64,000 bases of DNA, taken from contig NZ_JAHWXK010000001.1 in NCBI RefSeq assembly GCF_023091155.1, positions 2,418,001 through 2,482,000 on the forward strand. The letters run 5' to 3'. Under the pieces are notes generated by a model, which saw nothing but the letters and a program-made list of their open reading frames with translations, did no database searches and had not been told where the DNA came from. The stretch comes from Microbacterium sufflavum (GTDB taxonomy: Bacteria; Actinomycetota; Actinomycetes; Actinomycetales; Microbacteriaceae). This document shows positions 9,223 to 38,602 of this stretch, piece by piece (within the stretch, counting starts at the first letter, position 1; every line of letters begins with the position of its first letter). Both the position numbers and the translations under genes were made by a program.

Positions 9223-12027
<2,805 letters not shown>

Positions 12028-12043
12028 CCCGAGCAGGGTGAGA

Positions 12044-12076
12044 GGAGGGCCAGTCCGTGCGGATTGGCCCTCCTTT
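12044..12076 (+). terminator. Rho-independent terminator after secA
   Basis: 13-bp stem with one G-T pair (12044-12056 with 12061-12073), GTGC loop, TTT tail. The alaA promoter begins directly behind it. Confidence 0.85.
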
Positions 12077-12084
12077 CGTCCCTG

Positions 12085-12090
12085 TAGGCT
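12085..12090 (+). promoter_or_regulatory. -10 element of alaA, probable leaderless start
   Basis: TAGGCT ends 6 nt before the ATG at 12097; no Shine-Dalgarno is present. Confidence 0.5.
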
Positions 12091-12096
12091 TGATCG

Positions 12097-13323
12097 ATGA
12101 CACCATCGCGCACCTTCGACCAGTCGTCGAAGCTCAAGAACGTCCTGTACGAGATTCGCGGAAACGCCCTCGTCGAGGCGGCGCGACTGGAGGCAGAGGG
12201 CCACCGGATCCTCAAGCTGAACACGGGCAACCCCGCGATCTTCGGCTTCGACGCCCCGCATCAGATCGTGCACGACATGCTGGCAGCCCTTCCCACGGCG
12301 CACGGCTACAGCGACAGCAAGGGCATCATCTCCGCGCGACGCGCCGTGGTGAGCCGGTACGAGCAGGTCGAGGGCTTCCCGCGGTTCGACCCCGACGACG
12401 TGTACCTCGGCAACGGCGTGTCCGAGCTCATCACCATGACCATGCAGGCGCTGCTCGACGAGGGCGACGAGGTGCTGATCCCGACGCCCGACTATCCGCT
12501 GTGGACCGCCATGACCAGCCTCGCGGGTGGCACGCCGGTGCACTACGTGTGCGATGAGAACGACGGCTGGCAGCCCGATCTGGAAGATCTCCGGTCCAAG
12601 ATCACGCCGCGGACCAAAGCCATGGTCATCATCAACCCGAACAACCCGACCGGTGTCGTGTACTCGCGCGCGGTGCTGGAGGGCCTGGTGCAGATCGCCA
12701 GGGAGCATCAGCTGCTCATTCTGTCGGACGAGATCTACGACCGCATCCTGTTCGACGATGCGGTGCACATCCCCACGGCGACCCTCGCGCCCGACCTGCT
12801 GTGCCTCACGTTCAACGGGCTCTCGAAGACGTATCGCGTGGCGGGCTACCGCTCGGGGTGGATGGTGATCACGGGGCCGCAGGACCATGCGAAGGGCTTC
12901 ATCGAGGGCATCACACTGCTGGCGTCGACCCGGCTGTGCCCGAACGTGCCCGCGCAGCACGCCGTGCAGGCGGCGCTCTCCGGGGTGCAGTCGATCGATG
13001 CGCTGATCGCGCCGACCGGTCGCCTGCACGAGCAGCGGGACATCGCATGGGAAGGCCTGGAGGCGATCCCGGGGGTGACGTGCGTGAAGCCCCAGGGGGC
13101 GCTGTACGCCTTCCCGCGTCTCGACCCCGAGGTGCATGAGATCCGTGACGACGCGAAGCTGGTGTACGACCTGCTGGTGTCGGAGCACATCCTGGTCGTG
13201 CAGGGCACCGGATTCAACTGGCCGAACCCCGATCACCTGCGGTTGGTGACCCTGCCAGAGCCGCGAGTGCTGAGCGAAGCCGTCGAGCGACTGGGGAACT
13301 TCCTCTCGAGCTACCGCCAGTAG
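12097..13323 (+). CDS. alaA: PLP-dependent alanine-type aminotransferase
   Basis: Class I/II fold-type I aminotransferase of 408 aa, the length of E. coli AlaA (glutamate-pyruvate transaminase). Residues fitting the family are the NPNNPTG loop, the SDEIYDRI aspartate/tyrosine that hold the cofactor, the Schiff-base lysine K244 in NGLSKTYR, and the GYRSGW arginine. The N-terminal LKLNTGNPAIFGF segment is typical of AlaA. The exact amino-donor preference cannot be read from sequence. Its last 110 bases overlap the 3' end of the convergent CpaE-like gene. Confidence 0.88.
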   Translation: MTPSRTFDQSSKLKNVLYEIRGNALVEAARLEAEGHRILKLNTGNPAIFGFDAPHQIVHDMLAALPTAHGYSDSKGIISARRAVVSRYEQVEGFPRFDPDDVYLGNGVSELITMTMQALLDEGDEVLIPTPDYPLWTAMTSLAGGTPVHYVCDENDGWQPDLEDLRSKITPRTKAMVIINPNNPTGVVYSRAVLEGLVQIAREHQLLILSDEIYDRILFDDAVHIPTATLAPDLLCLTFNGLSKTYRVAGYRSGWMVITGPQDHAKGFIEGITLLASTRLCPNVPAQHAVQAALSGVQSIDALIAPTGRLHEQRDIAWEGLEAIPGVTCVKPQGALYAFPRLDPEVHEIRDDAKLVYDLLVSEHILVVQGTGFNWPNPDHLRLVTLPEPRVLSEAVERLGNFLSSYRQ

Positions 13324-14491
13324 GCGCGGCGACGGCGGGCGCGGGGGAGAGCGACAGCGCGAGTCGACGCACCCCCGCGACGAGGGCGGAACGCGGTGTG
13401 AGGTCGGCCATGGGCCGCGCATGCAGCAGGGCCGCGTCTGCCGCGCGCTGGTCGAACGGCAGGAAGACGATGTCGGTGATCCCGGCGAACCGTTCGAGAG
13501 TCCGGCGGACCTGTCCCCGGGCATCGATGCCGAGCGGCCCGGGGCGTACGGCGTTGACCACCACCGTGATGGGCGTGGAGCCGACGAGTCGGCGGACCTC
13601 GGCGTGGTCTCGGAGGAAGCGGCTGATGCCGACCGGGTCGGCGGCCGCGACGGCCACGATCCGGTCGGCTTCGGCGAGGGTCGCCGCGGTTGCCGCGTGG
13701 CGGCGAGGGCCGACCAGATCGTAGGTCGCCTCGTCGTCGGCGTCGACCGCGGCTGCCACGTCGACCACCGTCTCCTCCGCCCACTCCCGGCAGGCCGCGA
13801 GGAGGACGTGGAGTCGATGCGCCGAGAGTTCGGGCCAGCGAGTCGGACGATTGATGCCGCACAGCACGTCGAACTCCACACCGCCCGCGCCGACGCGTGC
13901 CGCCAGCCTGGCGAGCTCGGCGCTGTCGAGTGCCCCGGTCTCCGCGCGGCGGCAGGCAGCGGCGATTCCCGGGGCGTCGTCGCCGAGCCCGAGGAGAAGC
14001 GCGAGCGAGGGAGCGACCGTGTCCGCATCCAGCAGCGCTGTGCGGCGGCCCGTGCGCGCCAGCTCCACGGCCAACTGGATCGCGACCGTCGAGCGGCCGG
14101 GAGCTCCCTGGGGCCCCCAGACCGCGATGATCCTCGGGGAGGCGCTCCGAGGCGTCTCGGCGACGGCGGGCGAGGCCTCCGCGTGGAGCGCTGCCGCCAC
14201 CTCCCAGCCGGGGGCATCCGTGCGCAGCGCCGACGGAAGGCCGAGTCGTGCCAGGAGACGACTGTCGGAATCGCCGAGCGCCACGATACGGACACCCGCC
14301 CGGTCACATGCGGCGATCAGGTCCGGAGTCAGCGCGTCGCGCGAGGCGGGAACGATCACCGCATCCACGCCGGCGTGAAGATGCTCGCGAACGCTCGACG
14401 GACCATCGATGGCGACCGCGTCCACTCCTTCCAGGAGGAGCTCGGCCGCGAGCTGGTCCGCCCGATCCTTCGGGAGCGCGACCAGGACCAT
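13214..14491 (-). CDS. CpaE/MinD-like ATPase, orphan
   Basis: 425 aa from ATG 14491, whose A overlaps the stop of the upstream SAF gene (TGATG). A receiver-like N-terminal domain (about 1-110) precedes a deviant-Walker P-loop domain: GPQGAPGRST (about 123-133), TALLDAD (A' motif), and later segments typical of ParA/MinD folds. CpaE proteins localise Tad/Flp pilus machinery, but no CpaF, TadB/C or pilin is in this window. The reading frame stays open through the 3' end of the convergent alaA, giving a 110-nt antisense overlap; the Ala/Ser-rich C-terminus comes from there. Function unknown. Confidence 0.8.
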   Translation of the reverse strand: MVLVALPKDRADQLAAELLLEGVDAVAIDGPSSVREHLHAGVDAVIVPASRDALTPDLIAACDRAGVRIVALGDSDSRLLARLGLPSALRTDAPGWEVAAALHAEASPAVAETPRSASPRIIAVWGPQGAPGRSTVAIQLAVELARTGRRTALLDADTVAPSLALLLGLGDDAPGIAAACRRAETGALDSAELARLAARVGAGGVEFDVLCGINRPTRWPELSAHRLHVLLAACREWAEETVVDVAAAVDADDEATYDLVGPRRHAATAATLAEADRIVAVAAADPVGISRFLRDHAEVRRLVGSTPITVVVNAVRPGPLGIDARGQVRRTLERFAGITDIVFLPFDQRAADAALLHARPMADLTPRSALVAGVRRLALSLSPAPAVAAPTGGSSRGSSPVARRLRSALAALAGSPTAGDRGSAS

Positions 14492-15111
14492 CACGATCCG
14501 GCACCGACAGGGATCACGGAGAGCGCGGCGCCCCCGGTGGCGGCCGCGAGCACGTCGGCGACGTCGGTCCGGTCGACGACGATCTCCACCTTCGTGCCGC
14601 TCTCCGCCAGCATGCCGTCGTCTTCGAGGACCGTCCGCACCACCGCGTCGCCGACGAGGACGCGCGGGGCGTCGAACGTCCTGCCGTCGTCTCTCGCGGG
14701 TGCCTGCCACACCTCGACGTCGGCGCCGGGGCCGATCGAATCGGGGATCGCGGTCGTGGTCTCGATCACGACGGTGGTGGTGCGGTCGTCCTTCTCGTCG
14801 GCCACCGCGGACCGGGGGAGCAGCTCGCCCTTCGTGAGGGTGCGCCGCGCGATCTGCCCCGGCTCGAGCCGACCTGGACCCACGTACCGATCCGTGAGTG
14901 CGCCGATGCTGACCTGGGCCACCTCGAAGTCGTCAGCGGTGAGAACCTCGCCGCGCGCGATGGTCCGCCGCGCCTGCAGGAGCGGTTCGGTCCGGTCGGA
15001 TGCCGCGACGAGCAGCCATACCCCGGCGATCGAGATGACGACGAGGGCGATGCCGACCAGGAAGCGCAGGTCGGCGCGGAAAGCCGGGCGCGGACGCGAG
15101 TGGGAAGCCAT
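14491..15111 (-). CDS. SAF-domain (CpaB/RcpC-like) membrane-anchored protein
   Basis: 206 aa: basic N-terminus, one transmembrane helix (about 17-40, LVGIALVVISIAGVWLLVA), then a SAF domain (about 45-110) with the ARRTIARGEVLTADDF start that is characteristic of the family, and a C-terminal beta-rich part. CpaB/RcpC proteins are periplasmic parts of Tad pili, and SAF domains may bind carbohydrate or the sugar chain of the wall. It is [15 protein letters not shown] coupled to the CpaE-like ATPase. The pair stands alone, so a pilus role is unproven. A DnaA-box-like element lies 37 bp upstream of the start. Confidence 0.82.
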   Translation of the reverse strand: MASHSRPRPAFRADLRFLVGIALVVISIAGVWLLVAASDRTEPLLQARRTIARGEVLTADDFEVAQVSIGALTDRYVGPGRLEPGQIARRTLTKGELLPRSAVADEKDDRTTTVVIETTTAIPDSIGPGADVEVWQAPARDDGRTFDAPRVLVGDAVVRTVLEDDGMLAESGTKVEIVVDRTDVADVLAAATGGAALSVIPVGAGS

Positions 15112-15147
15112 GGCGATATCGTCACAGAACCGCGGAGAGGGCTCGCG

Positions 15148-15161
15148 GAGTTATCCACATA
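15148..15161. promoter_or_regulatory. DnaA-box-like element upstream of the SAF gene
   Basis: GAGTTATCCACATA contains a perfect TTATCCACA. The same 14 bases recur at 16123-16136, each time exactly 37 bp before the start of a - strand gene. Confidence 0.6.
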
Positions 15162-15196
15162 CGCGGGACACCCGCCTCCGTCGGTGGCCCCTCGAC

Positions 15197-15202
15197 CAGA
15201 AT
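15197..15202 (+). promoter_or_regulatory. -10-like element of the small HTH gene
   Basis: CAGAAT (one mismatch to TANNNT) ends 6 nt before ATG 15209, the spacing seen at other leaderless starts in the window. Confidence 0.35.
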
Positions 15203-15208
15203 GTGGGT

Positions 15209-15487
15209 ATGACACCCGCTCCGACCCCCGCACCGCAGTTCCTCGCTCCCGCGCAGGTCGCGGAGCTCCTGAGTATCGACGTGGCCGAGGTGATCGGCCT
15301 CATCCACGAGGGGCGACTGCGCGGCGCGCAACTGGGTTCGCCCGCGCGCTGGCGCGTGGAGGAGGCCAGCATCGAGGGGTACCTCGCCGAGCAGTCGGAA
15401 GAGGCACGCAGGATGGCGCTGTGGCGTCAGTCGCAGACCGCGAGCTTCCCCGAGGTGTGGGGAACGTCCGCGGCTCACACGCGCTGA
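15209..15487 (+). CDS. Small excisionase/MerR-like helix-turn-helix protein
   Basis: 92 aa. Residues about 12-55 form a winged helix of the HTH_17/excisionase type (FLAPAQVAELLSIDVAEVIGLIHEGRLRGAQLG, then ARWRVEEASIEGYL). A hydrophilic tail follows. Such domains bind DNA as small architectural or regulatory proteins; no recombinase or phage gene is nearby, so an excision role is unlikely. It is divergent from the SAF-CpaE pair and could regulate it. Its last 13 bases overlap the convergent gene at 15475. Confidence 0.8.
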   Translation: MTPAPTPAPQFLAPAQVAELLSIDVAEVIGLIHEGRLRGAQLGSPARWRVEEASIEGYLAEQSEEARRMALWRQSQTASFPEVWGTSAAHTR

Positions 15488-16086
15488 TCGCCGGAGAAGC
15501 GCACGACGACGAGCGCCGCGTACGGGACGATGCGGAACCCGCGCACCGCAGCGGCTCGCCGCGACTCCCCGGTGTCGTGCAGCGCCAGATCGAGGTGATC
15601 GGCGGCGGCGCGATCGATCGTGCCGTGCACGTCGTCTCCGTGTCGTGTGGTCAGGTGGACGGGTACGCGTCGTCGCGCGAGGTCGCGCAGCACGAAGCCG
15701 ATCGGCATACGCTCGCGGAGGGTGCGCTCGGCGGGCCGATGCTCGTCGAGGCTGGAGAGCATGGCGCCGTGGTCGACGGCGAGACCCGTGATCGCGGGGA
15801 GGGGAATCAGCAGGGCCGACGCGGCAGCCCTCGCCTCCTGCGGTACCCGCGAGACCGCTGCGATCCAGTCGACGCCGAGGGATCGGAGCGTCACCGGAAG
15901 CCGGTGGCCGTCCGCCAGGTCGACGACCGCGTCGGCGTCGGCGGCGCAGAGCTGCCGGAGACGCGAGTGCAGGTCGAGTCGGGAGATGCGGAGCCGCTCG
16001 GACTCCGCATCCAGCGCGGCGCGCTCCGCCTCCCACTCCGAGGCGAGCTGGCTCTCGAGGTCGTCGAAGAGGCGGTCCCAGTGCAC
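15475..16086 (-). CDS. Hypothetical protein with N-terminal coiled coil
   Basis: 203 aa from a GTG at 16086. Residues 5-45 are a charged helix (DLESQLASEWEAERAALDAESERL) likely to coil, followed by a mixed alpha/beta domain with no motif I recognise. A TACGCT hexamer ends 7 nt before the GTG and a DnaA-box-like element lies 37 bp upstream, exactly as for the SAF gene, which suggests shared control. No signal peptide or membrane segment. Function unknown. Confidence 0.72.
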   Translation of the reverse strand: MHWDRLFDDLESQLASEWEAERAALDAESERLRISRLDLHSRLRQLCAADADAVVDLADGHRLPVTLRSLGVDWIAAVSRVPQEARAAASALLIPLPAITGLAVDHGAMLSSLDEHRPAERTLRERMPIGFVLRDLARRRVPVHLTTRHGDDVHGTIDRAAADHLDLALHDTGESRRAAAVRGFRIVPYAALVVVRFSGDQRV

Positions 16087-16093
16087 CCGACAG

Positions 16094-16099
16094 AGCGTA
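16094..16099 (-). promoter_or_regulatory. -10 element of the gene at 16086
   Basis: TACGCT on the - strand ends 7 nt before the GTG start; the DnaA-box-like element sits just upstream of where the -35 would be. Confidence 0.4.
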
Positions 16100-16122
16100 G
16101 GGGGAGCGCGGGTCGGATGTAC

Positions 16123-16136
16123 GAGTTATCCACATA
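16123..16136. promoter_or_regulatory. DnaA-box-like element upstream of the gene at 16086
   Basis: Second exact copy of GAGTTATCCACATA, 975 bp from the first. Confidence 0.6.
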
Positions 16137-16213
16137 GTTCCGCTGATCGCCCCCGCGCGGGTGCTCGCGCGTGCTCGACTGTCGCCGTTCGTCCGCCGAC
16201 CGGAGAGTTCGCC

Positions 16214-16600
16214 ATGATGCTTCACGAGTACTTCGCCCCGCAGCCGACGCCCACGCGTCAGCTTCCCGATCCCGCACCGCTGCTGCGCCGTCTCACGCAC
16301 GGCGTCCTGGAAGTGCTCGCCGGTGTGCGGGAGATCGATCAGCTCGCGCGATGGTTCAGCGAGGACGCGTACCGGAGTCTGGTCGTGCGTTCGAACCTGG
16401 CGGCACGGGCGAGGAGCGCGCGGGGTGTGCCGCCGGCGCGACCGACGTTCGTGATCCGTTCGCTCCGGGTCACGGAGCCGGTCGACGGCGTGATCGAAGC
16501 GGTCGTCGTCGTGGCAGGTCCCGGGCGGACCAGGGCGGTCGCGGTGCGACTCGAAGGGCTCGATCGACGATGGCGGGCGACGTCGCTGGCCATCCTCTGA
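16214..16600 (+). CDS. Rv3235-family protein
   Basis: 128 aa from ATG 16214 (a second in-frame ATG follows at once). The central part (LRRLTHGVLEVLAGVREIDQLARWFSEDAYRSL) and the beta-rich end match the Rv3235 family of Actinobacteria, whose members lie near secA and whose function is not known. The fold resembles a small NTF2-like or SnoaL-like scaffold, which is a guess. It is followed by pdtaS after 25 nt, which has its own promoter. Confidence 0.8.
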   Translation: MMLHEYFAPQPTPTRQLPDPAPLLRRLTHGVLEVLAGVREIDQLARWFSEDAYRSLVVRSNLAARARSARGVPPARPTFVIRSLRVTEPVDGVIEAVVVVAGPGRTRAVAVRLEGLDRRWRATSLAIL

Positions 16601-16613
16601 GGCGGTGCGGCCC

Positions 16614-16619
16614 TAGGCT
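16614..16619 (+). promoter_or_regulatory. -10 element of pdtaS, probable leaderless start
   Basis: TAGGCT ends 6 nt before the GTG at 16626. Confidence 0.5.
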
Positions 16620-16625
16620 GGGTAG

Positions 16626-18110
16626 GTGTCAACCCTCAGCGACCTCGCCCAGACCCAGGGCCTTCTGACCGACGACGACATCGAGTGGCTGCACCGTCTT
16701 GCCGGTGACGGTCAGCTTCTCGCCGACCTGGCCTCCGCGGACATCGTGCTGTGGATCCAGACGGAGGACGGGTCCTTCATCGCCGTCGCCCACGCCCGTC
16801 CGAGCGGCGCGGCGACGCTGTTCTACCGGGACATCGTCGGCGAGCGTGTTCGTCCGCAGTGGCGCACGCAGGTCCAGGGCGCTTTCGAGTCGGCGGAGAT
16901 CGTGGACTCCTCCTCGCCGGATTGGTTCGAGGAGACGCCCACGCGCGTGCGGGCGGTTCCGATCGTGATCACCCGCCGCGGCGACGACGTGGCGCCCTCC
17001 GTCATCGGGGTCGTGACCCGCCACACCAACCTCGGCGAGGTCCGCACGCCGTCGCGGCAGCAGATCACGTTCGACGAGTGCGCGAACGACCTGTTCCGCA
17101 TGATCGCGGACGGCAGCTTCCCCGACCCGGCCGCACCGACCTCACCCCGTCGCGGAGCGCCGCGTGCGTCCGACGGCCTGATCCGCATCGACGTCGACGG
17201 GATCACCACCTTCGCGAGCCCGAACGCGCTCTCGGCGTTCAACCGCATGGGATTCGACGACGAGCTCGAGGGGGAATCGCTCGCGGAGGTCACGACCCGG
17301 CTGGTACCGCCCTCGCGGCAGGTCGACGAGTCGCTGCCGGTCGTCGTCACCGGCCGCGCACCGTGGCGCACCGACATCGAGGCGCGCGGTGTGACCGTCT
17401 CGTTGCGCGCGATCCCGCTGAAGGACCACGGCACCCGCATCGGCGCGATCGTGCTCTGCCGCGATGTCTCGGAACTGCGGCATCAGGAGCAGGAGCTGAT
17501 CACGAAGGACGCGACCATCCGGGAGATCCACCACCGGGTGAAGAACAACCTGCAGACCGTGGCGTCGCTGCTACGGATCCAGGCGCGTCGCACGCACTCC
17601 GACGAGGCCCGAGACGCGCTCACGCAGGCCATGCGCCGGGTCGACGCGATCGCCGTCGTGCACGACACGCTGGCCCAGGGACTCACCCAGAAGGTGGACT
17701 TCGACGAGGTGTTCGATCGGGTCCTCAAGCTGGTCGCAGAGGTGGCGTCCGCGCCGAACACCCGGGCTCGTACGCAGTCGACGGGGCGCTTCGGGGTGCT
17801 GCCGAGCGAGTACGCCACGCCGCTCGCCCTCGCGCTGACGGAGGTCGTCACGAACGCAGTGGAGCACGGGCTCGCGGGTCAGGAGGGCTCGGTGACCATC
17901 GACGCCCAGCGCACCGAGGACAACCTCCGCGTCACCGTGCGCGACACCGGCCACGGGTTGCCGGAGGGGCGCGTCGGTCAGGGCCTCGGCACGCAGATCA
18001 TCCGCACGCTCATCCAGGGGGAGCTCGGCGGGTCGATCGAGTGGCGTGGCAGCGAGGGTGAGGGCACCGAGGTGGTCATCGACATCCCGCTGCGATGGCT
18101 GGAGCGCTGA
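16626..18110 (+). CDS. pdtaS: Cytosolic sensor histidine kinase PdtaS
   Basis: 494 aa, no membrane helix: an N-terminal GAF-like domain (about 10-150), a PAS domain (about 180-285), then a HisKA_2/HWE-type kinase core with EIHHRVKNNLQ (H302/H303) and a HATPase with EVVTNAVEHGL and DTGHGLPEG. PdtaS phosphorylates the ANTAR-domain RNA-binding regulator PdtaR, which acts by transcription antitermination; the pdtaR gene is not in this window. Start GTG 16626 follows a TAGGCT hexamer. It is next to whiB1, the same pairing as in M. tuberculosis. Confidence 0.92.
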   Translation: MSTLSDLAQTQGLLTDDDIEWLHRLAGDGQLLADLASADIVLWIQTEDGSFIAVAHARPSGAATLFYRDIVGERVRPQWRTQVQGAFESAEIVDSSSPDWFEETPTRVRAVPIVITRRGDDVAPSVIGVVTRHTNLGEVRTPSRQQITFDECANDLFRMIADGSFPDPAAPTSPRRGAPRASDGLIRIDVDGITTFASPNALSAFNRMGFDDELEGESLAEVTTRLVPPSRQVDESLPVVVTGRAPWRTDIEARGVTVSLRAIPLKDHGTRIGAIVLCRDVSELRHQEQELITKDATIREIHHRVKNNLQTVASLLRIQARRTHSDEARDALTQAMRRVDAIAVVHDTLAQGLTQKVDFDEVFDRVLKLVAEVASAPNTRARTQSTGRFGVLPSEYATPLALALTEVVTNAVEHGLAGQEGSVTIDAQRTEDNLRVTVRDTGHGLPEGRVGQGLGTQIIRTLIQGELGGSIEWRGSEGEGTEVVIDIPLRWLER

Positions 18111-18130
18111 ACGCGGACACCGGACAGACG

Positions 18131-18163
18131 GAAGCGGCCTGAGATCTGATCTCAGGCCGCTTC
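18131..18163. terminator. Bidirectional terminator between pdtaS and whiB1
   Basis: Perfect 15-bp stem (18131-18145 with 18149-18163) with a 3-nt loop, lying between convergent stops. Confidence 0.85.
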
Positions 18164-18170
18164 GAAGTCG

Positions 18171-18419
18171 TCAGGAGGCGCGGCGGGCGCGGGCGGCGCG
18201 GCGCTTGAGTGCGCGGCGCTCGTCCTCGGACAGGCCGCCCCAGACGCCCGAGTCCTGGCTGGTCTCCAGGGCGTACTGCAGGCAGATCTCGGTGACGGTG
18301 CACGTGGCGCAGACCGTCTTGGCCTTCTCGATCTGGTCGACGGCCGGTCCGGTGTTGCCGACGGGAAAGAAAAGCTCGGGGTCGACGGTCAGGCAGGCGG
18401 CCTTATCGCGCCAGTCCAT
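18171..18419 (-). CDS. whiB1: Iron-sulfur regulator WhiB1
   Basis: 82 aa WhiB-like protein. The four [4Fe-4S] ligands are C9, C37, C40 and C46, followed by the beta-turn GVWGG (58-62) and a basic C-terminal tail (residues 68-81) for DNA contact. WhiB1 is the essential, NO-sensitive member that binds domain 4 of the primary sigma factor. Length, spacing of cysteines and pairing with pdtaS support WhiB1 rather than another paralogue. The upstream region (18420-18648) contains two small dyads that may regulate it. Confidence 0.93.
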   Translation of the reverse strand: MDWRDKAACLTVDPELFFPVGNTGPAVDQIEKAKTVCATCTVTEICLQYALETSQDSGVWGGLSEDERRALKRRAARARRAS

Positions 18420-18507
18420 GGGGGCTCCTCGGTGTGGATTTCATGAGATGTCGCGATGCGACTTCTCGATTCGGGCGGCGGTTCGGGTTCCGCTACCCTG
18501 TTGAGAT

Positions 18508-37147: not shown

Positions 37148-38602
37148 ATGGAGTTCTCAGGCGCGCAGCCCACCGTCGATCTGACCTATTCGGACGTCTT
37201 CCTGGTGCCGCGCCGGTCGGGCGTCACCAGTCGGCTCCAGGTGGATCTGGCCCCGCACGACGGCACCCCGGCGACCCTGCCGCTGGTGGCCGCGAACATG
37301 AACTCGGTCACCGGGCCCAGCCTCGCCGCGGTGCTCGCCCGGCGCGGTGCGCTCGGCGTGCTGCCGCAGGACCTCCCGCTGCAGGAGCTCGACGCGGCGA
37401 TCCGCGATGTGAAGAGCCAGCCCGTGCTGTGGGACACGCCGATCGTGCTGCCCCCGCACGCCACGGTCGCCGAGGCGCTGCGACTGCTGCCGGCCACCAG
37501 CGGTCACGGGATCGTGGTCGCCCAGGGGTCCGGCCCGATCGACGTGGAGCGGATCCTCGGCATCCTGCCGGCGACCCGCCTCGCGACCGCCCTCCCCGAC
37601 GCGCAGCTGGGCGACCTGGTCCACCGCGGCAGCCCGTCGATCGACGCCGACGACATCGGCTCGGAGCGGCACGCGTTCGACGTGATCACCGAGGCGGACG
37701 TCGACATGGTCACCGTGGTCCACCACGGGCACCTCGTCGGCACGCTGAGCGCCCGCAGCGCCCTTCGCGCCACGCTGTACCGCCCCGCCGTCGACGCGGA
37801 CGGACGACTCGCGGTGGCCGCGGCGGTCGGCATCAACGGCGACGTCGCCGCGAAGGCCCGCGCGCTCGCCGGTGCCGGGGTGGACGTGCTGGTGCTCGAC
37901 ACCGCCCACGGCCACCAGGAGGGCATGCTCCGCGCACTGCGCACGGTGGCCGAGCTCGGCCTCGGCCTCCCGATCGTCGCGGGCAACATCGTCACGGCCG
38001 ACGGCGTGCGCGACCTCGTCGATGCGGGGGCCACGATCCTCAAGGTCGGCGTCGGCCCCGGCGCGATGTGCACGACGCGCATGATGACCGCCGTGGGGCG
38101 CCCGCAGTTCTCGGCAGTGCTGGAGACGGCGCAGGCCGCCCGCGAGGCCGGAGCGCACGTGTGGGCGGACGGGGGAGTGCGCTACCCGCGCGACGTCGCT
38201 CTCGCACTGGCAGCCGGCGCGGCCTCGGTGATGATCGGCTCGTGGTTCGCCGGCACGATCGAGGCGCCGGGCGAGCTGCAGCGCGACGCGGAGGGCCGCC
38301 TGTTCAAGGAGTCGTGGGGGATGGCGTCGACCAAGGCCGTGCAGGCGCGGTTCGAGCGCCTCGACGCATACGAGCGCGCCCGCAAGGAGCTGTTCGCCGA
38401 GGGCATCTCCTCCTCGAAGATCTACCTCGACCCGCTGCGGCCGGGTGTGGAGGACCTGCTCGACATGATCACGTCCGGCGTGCGGTCGTCGTTCACGTAC
38501 GCGGGTGCCGCGACCGTGCCGGAGTTCCACGAGCGCGCGCTGGTCGGCCTGCAGTCCGCGGCCGGCTACGAGGAGGGCAAGGCGCTGCCGGTGAGCTGGT
38601 AG
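37148..38602 (+). CDS. guaB1: GuaB1, IMPDH-like purine nucleotide reductase
   Basis: 484 aa IMPDH/GMPR-fold protein with a TIM barrel interrupted by a CBS-domain pair (about 95-210). The catalytic loop is [13 protein letters not shown] with C308. GuaB1 of mycobacteria has been shown to act as a GMP reductase (GMP to IMP) although annotated as IMPDH-related; the flap and C-terminus here are of that subgroup ([14 protein letters not shown]). A longer in-frame reading into kgd antisense is not real. Confidence 0.92.

Follow-up and report, generated by a model that had tools for sequence, protein, structure and literature searches.

The paired elements and their genes

Why do two neighboring genes of Microbacterium sufflavum carry the same short sequence at the same distance from their start codons, and what is likely to read it? 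In the window (the whole 64-kb stretch of DNA that was analysed), the 14-mer GAGTTATCCACATA occurs at 15148-15161 and 16123-16136, in the same orientation and 975 bp apart, just as a sequence-only reading had reported. These are its only two copies in the 3.63-Mb genome (reversed control: 0), and the chance expectation in the window is 0.00 (100 shuffles). Each copy starts 37 positions upstream of a minus-strand start codon (ATG at 15111 for the SAF gene, GTG at 16086 for the coiled-coil gene), leaving 36 bp between, which bears out the identical offset noted in the same reading. Both are placed between divergent genes, the plus-strand partners being an HTH_17 gene at 15209 and a DUF6459 gene at 16214. 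The features are:

13214..14491, minus strand: CpaE/TadZ-like P-loop ATPase of the SAF operon (PF10609 and PF01656; TIGR03815 sub-threshold)
14491..15111, minus strand: SAF-domain protein, CpaB/RcpC-like Flp pilus assembly factor (PF08666; TIGR03177 sub-threshold; synteny)
15118..15123, minus strand: -10-like hexamer GACGAT before the SAF gene, putative leaderless promoter
15148..15161, minus strand: DnaA-box-like promoter element 1 (TATGTGGATAACTC in the direction of the SAF/CpaB gene)
15209..15487, plus strand: HTH_17 small DNA-binding protein, divergent from SAF (PF12728)
15475..16086, minus strand: coiled-coil protein, no assigned family (PF07317 below cut-off only)
16094..16099, minus strand: -10-like hexamer TACGCT before the coiled-coil gene, putative leaderless promoter
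16123..16136, minus strand: DnaA-box-like promoter element 2 (TATGTGGATAACTC in the direction of the coiled-coil gene)
16214..16600, plus strand: DUF6459 protein, divergent neighbor of element 2 (PF20060, E 1.1e-32)

Actinobacterial DnaA-box variants follow the pattern YYNTCCACA, and TTATCCACA matches the DnaA 9-mer at all nine bases. Element 1, in which TGTGGATAACTC occupies -48 to -37 from the SAF start codon, is the sole such box in the HTH_17/SAF intergenic region of the window. No third TTATCCACA was found in the 64 kb at up to one mismatch; looser YYNTCCACA matches number two, at 38446 and 46760. A search for RNA families within 12000-18500 found none.

The SAF protein and the ATPase that follows it resemble the Flp/Tad pilus proteins CpaB/RcpC and CpaE/TadZ, and by synteny the SAF and HTH_17 genes are orthologues of Mlut_14650 and Mlut_14660 of Micrococcus luteus, whose Mlut_14660/14650/14640 locus is the same HTH_17 - SAF/CpaB - TadZ/CpaE block; conservation of the block in other genera of Actinobacteria has already been stated (PMC8467076). 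The labels “orphan genes” and “unknown membrane-associated system” given in the sequence-only reading are therefore wrong: the genes appear to be part of a Flp/Tad pilus block. The HTH_17 protein shares 92% identity with a Microbacterium paraoxydans protein, and the coiled-coil gene is conserved in the block in 25 of 30 loci. Among the results, no relevance was found for the adjacent MtrAB block.

Copies elsewhere in the genome

TTATCCACA is present 13 times in the 3.63-Mb genome, the reversed word twice. As placed by eye from the open reading frames, five copies are in the dnaA/oriC region, two upstream of a dnaB-like ORF, two in the window elements and two at flp and tadA operons, with one inside an ORF and one intergenic about 12 kb from oriC. 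The pilus copies, on contig C3, precede a TadA ATPase in one case and, in the other, a 59-residue Flp-type pilin with TadE-like ORFs behind it; in both operons the 12-bp stretch ends 36 bp before the start codon, as in the window. The flp, tadE-type and TadA names were read by eye; the TadA of a genus relative matches T2SSE. The dnaB-like ORF, judged by eye to encode the replicative helicase DnaB, has its two boxes at C1:941440 and 941497.

Spacing and promoter geometry in the genus

The 12-mer GAGTTATCCACA is present in all 29 same-genus genomes surveyed, at 110 places (reversed control: 0). The set is silent on weaker sites, because it was chosen by the exact 12-mer; 103 of the 110 places were examined, seven being left out (one in genome G007, two in G010, three in G019, one in G023). 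ORFs were counted by their distance from these 103 sites if they had 120 codons or more or ran off the end of the stretch: 25 start at a gap of 36 bp and 34 at gaps of 35-37, whereas other gaps average 0.94 and reach 8 at most. A scan of related genomes for the distance to gene starts, which the sequence-only reading had proposed, thus gives a clear peak.

The genes lying 35-38 bp beyond 35 of the 103 sites encode eight coiled-coil proteins, eight SAF proteins, six TadA, seven lipoproteins, three DUF222(-HNH) proteins and three others, two of which have sub-threshold DUF559 matches. These classes were assigned by eye; the script had put one coiled-coil protein under lipoproteins and one lipoprotein under others. 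The SAF and coiled-coil genes thus recur with the same spacing in relatives (eight sites each, the window's own counted).

In 31 of 31 sites a hexamer of the form NANNNT stops 6-9 nt short of the start codon, compared with 18 of 372 shifted windows; these 31 are drawn from the 35 promoter-class sites, four (L027, L031, L052, L082) having stayed in the “other” bin. A start codon about 7 nt after the -10 hexamer suggests a leaderless transcript, and this would put the box at -48 to -37, centered at about -42, the place of a class II activator. A second TGTGGA/TCCACA within 60-70 bp is found at none of the 35 promoter sites, as against 51 of the 68 remaining sites.

The less expected members of the set deserve a brief description. 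In some Microbacterium genomes, DUF222(-HNH) genes (L030, L036, L072) and DUF559-like genes (L031, L082; sub-threshold) have a box promoter at 35-36 bp; sharing this promoter, these nuclease-like genes may be part of the pilus regulon. The lipoprotein, of about 180 residues (..ASEEEAFAAAEETYRAY..), has a box promoter at L024, L052, L061, L067, L080, L089 and L093; the three proteins tested had no Pfam match. It is followed by an overlapping ORF in four of the four loci inspected downstream, read by eye as a secreted protein, a membrane protein or a second lipoprotein copy.

Conservation across the order

An HTH_17 protein matching at 1e-6 was found in 105 of 149 genomes of the order, and a divergent, adjacent SAF gene in 64 of 70 inspected loci (the 30 first returned plus 40 more HTH_17 matches). 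These 64 were scored for the box from the aligned start of one protein to that of the other, a stretch that may include some SAF coding sequence. YYNTCCACA is present in 52 (mean of 300 shuffles 1.6, maximum 6; reversed control 0) and the strict form TTRTCCACA in 30 (shuffle mean 0.1). The 52 boxed regions span 15 families, and 13 of them hold two boxes. In a named sample of 80 records (Arthrobacter, Cellulomonas, Frankia, Demequina and others), which partly overlaps the first, 69 loci have a divergent SAF gene and 11 do not, and the box is present in 53 of the 69.

The tadA genes behave similarly: among the 30 loci obtained for the 48 genomes, out of 59, that have TadA, the box is upstream of tadA in 27 (shuffle mean 1.0, maximum 5; reversed control 0), in its strict form in 17. 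It is absent from 12 of the 64 SAF/HTH regions and 3 of the 30 tadA regions. The distance from box to start codon is variable beyond Microbacterium and its closest relatives, and in several families, Arthrobacter-type genomes included, the box is on the HTH_17 side. A record titled Vibrio cholerae strain 35D (L213) carries an Arthrobacter-like HTH_17/SAF locus, and is probably a mislabelled or contaminated assembly.

The proposal that the two elements belong to one regulon is strongly supported by the 36-bp spacing peak together with this conservation. The outcomes named in advance as counting against it, absence of the element from orthologues or a frequency no higher than at random places, were not what the survey returned. 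A box of the TTATCCACA type very probably serves as one control element for the Flp-pilus regulon of actinobacteria.

Micrococcus luteus and the competence genes

The M. luteus counterpart of this locus has a genetic history. The 550-bp Mlut_14660/14650 region is a hot spot of mutations raising com expression, and nearly every derepressed com mutant is altered in the SAF gene, in the HTH gene or in the 5' region of the latter; loss of the SAF gene lowers transformation 10^4-fold, deletion of the HTH gene was not achievable, and the tad-1 cluster is described as essential for transformation (PMC8467076). The authors propose transcriptional interference and an HTH repressor, and do not settle whether the comEA/EC promoter is a binding site of the HTH product (PMC8467076).

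Genome G290 was taken to be M. luteus, because its HTH residues S27, S46 and R64, its SAF residues G27 and V31 and its 224-bp intergenic region match those deduced from the published mutations (PMC8467076). It has TGTGGACAACTC before TadA1 of tad-1: a facing pair of TTGTCCACA boxes, with starts about 36 bp apart, precedes a TadA that is 52% identical to that of the window genome and is, by position, TadA1. The G290 pair lies in L357 near 811923-811968, the divergent neighbor being the FtsK-like gene Mlut_07490 (PMC8467076). Such facing TTRTCCACA pairs (33-37 bp start to start) stand upstream of TadA in three Micrococcus-genus genomes, G290 among them (the others L367 and L368). Between the HTH and SAF genes, M. 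luteus carries just a weak variant, TGTGGAAAAG, and the two published intergenic mutations fall outside it. The idea that a published mutation at -44 hits the box was rejected: the position belongs to the 5' UTR.

Do the competence genes themselves carry the box? No YYNTCCACA was found between a point 400 bp ahead of the first start and the ComEA motif in five of five Micrococcus-genus genomes (in one of which the frame is uncertain) or in one Microbacterium. Of another 14 Microbacterium stretches, in which the ComEA motif was not located, five hold a loose YYN match somewhere; the strict TTRTCCACA was found in none of the 20 upstream stretches, these 14 included. Among 34 comEC loci (up to 3.8 kb) a loose match occurs in 10, the reversed control in 9 and the strict form in one; an initial look had covered 29 loci, most of them not reaching comEA. 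A strict box in the comEA/EC promoters was accordingly rejected for the 20 genomes followed further upstream, so that, where testable, the element marks the pilus and not the whole competence set. An TCCTGCACA-like stretch, one base off YYNTCCACA, precedes comEA in three Micrococcus-genus genomes (L451, L452, L454); it may be a weak box or due to chance.

What binds the box?

A pair of identical 14-mers could in principle be a chance repeat without function, and two copies by themselves would be thin evidence of anything else. This is scarcely credible given conservation and spacing far above the controls in the genome, the genus, the order and at tadA; it was rejected on the empty reversed control in the genome and on SAF/HTH and tadA upstream regions that beat their shuffles. 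The question is then which protein is bound, and the sequence-only reading had pointed to DnaA, a link that is plausible and indeed favored on the 9-mer and the oriC-like flanks, against which stand the solitary boxes of the genus and the dedicated HTH_17 regulator next door. Promoter and oriC boxes alike are mostly cTGTGGATAAC followed by T (13 oriC-locus boxes of three genomes and the genome's 13 sites), and in that set no flank specificity of the promoter boxes beyond that of the oriC boxes was seen. The two may also vary together: box and oriC have a triplet in common in 17 of 24 genomes (9.2 expected, p 0.001), a signal that is weaker within GC quartiles (14.5 expected, p 0.057; by another measure, p 0.031), the sample being 30 genomes less four without a recognised dnaA end and two without oriC boxes. 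DHTTV in DnaA domain IV is present in 28 of 30 genomes and was not found in the other two, in a search by another motif; an earlier comparison had covered 26 of 30 loci and located the domain by DHTTV itself. The clustering typical of DnaA boxes is absent at the Microbacterium promoters (0 of 35) and mixed elsewhere, with the 13 of 52 two-box regions and the tad-1 pair.

The box might instead be the operator of the HTH_17 protein itself (15209-15487, of the Mlut_14660 type), which would regulate the Flp pilus operons and its own divergent promoter, with the likeness to DnaA boxes due to convergence or to a borrowed site. We judge this rather unlikely, yet there is a case for it: the box is in the regulator's own intergenic region in those 52 of 64 loci as well as at regulated pilus operons, promoter boxes are solitary in the genus, and the com mutants and undeletable gene of M. 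luteus point to the HTH protein (PMC8467076). The HTH_17 gene also roughly tracks TadA, with exceptions both ways (of 11 genomes lacking TadA at 1e-60, four have no HTH match, four weak ones only and three a match). Against it, nine bases and flanks match oriC boxes, and comEA/EC, derepressed by the M. luteus mutations, showed no box where testable. An indirect test points the same way: between Microbacteriaceae genera that keep the SAF-side box, the HTH protein is only 33-36% identical, DnaA domain IV of the sister genus being 90% identical. Boxed genomes lacking HTH_17 were considered as a further test and dropped: it does not discriminate, because a better query gave strong matches in 6 of 19 retested (including G030, G032, G045 and G078). 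Improbable, and more so, is a binder that is neither DnaA nor HTH_17, TGTGGATAAC being read by some other activator or as an alternative sigma-factor element; the fixed 36-bp spacing would fit any class II activator, and the set includes DUF222, DUF559-like and lipoprotein genes without assigned role, but no candidate came up in an unsystematic look and the -10 hexamers follow the general NANNNT pattern, which speaks against a special sigma factor. As the binder, DnaA is judged somewhat more likely than HTH_17, and both could act on the same promoters.

The explanation towards which we lean, by a little, is that the elements are DnaA boxes serving as a common Flp/Tad pilus operator at leaderless promoters. 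They would be boxes of high-affinity type, solitary in the genus and about -42 from a leaderless transcription start, shared by the coiled-coil gene, SAF/CpaB-TadZ, tadA and flp-tadE, and in some relatives also by the lipoprotein and DUF222/DUF559-type genes. The bound protein would touch RNA polymerase near -35, in class II geometry, and so set the expression of the pilus operons together; if it is DnaA, building of the DNA-uptake/adhesion pilus would be tied to replication state or growth rate, and the HTH_17 neighbor would regulate these promoters too, as a second and dedicated factor. The data establish the element, its spacing within the genus, the genes that carry it and their conservation; leaderless starts, activation over repression and DnaA as the bound protein are what we infer. 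It is possible, at somewhat less than an even chance, that DnaA directly switches Flp/Tad pilus operons in most sampled families of the order, through solitary fixed class II boxes at leaderless promoters in Microbacterium, coupling pilus building and transformability to replication initiation or growth rate.

How Actinomycetota control competence and its pilus is described as an open question (PMC12849477). One conserved operator before the pilus operons would offer a direct handle, either ten bases or whatever binds them. If DnaA is the binder, a machine for gene transfer would come under the control of the replication cycle. No such link was found in the literature searched: among titles and abstract openings, with subscription literature mostly outside coverage, no report connects DnaA boxes with Flp/Tad pili or with competence in actinobacteria.

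Comparison with known systems

One of the closest known systems is the Flp/Tad pilus of M. luteus, which is required for natural transformation (PMC4322843). Its tadA, flp and tadE-type genes are among the box-carrying genes here, the difference being that the available text of that paper describes no promoter element. Likewise, “DnaA” does not occur in PMC8467076, and in the part of it available no common promoter motif is reported.

On the DnaA side, the protein acts as activator or repressor at promoters, and DnaA boxes or DnaA control have been described at those of nrdAB and dnaA in E. coli, dnaB, ftsZ and gcrA in C. crescentus and sda in B. subtilis (PMC8203912); in the portion of that review available, neither “competence” nor “pilus” occurs. 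Unlike these promoters, those considered here would serve a pilus regulon and, in this genus, have a solitary box at one fixed distance from putative leaderless starts. One point of contact is dnaB: it is among the C. crescentus genes of the review (PMC8203912), and boxes also stand upstream of the dnaB-like ORF of this genome.
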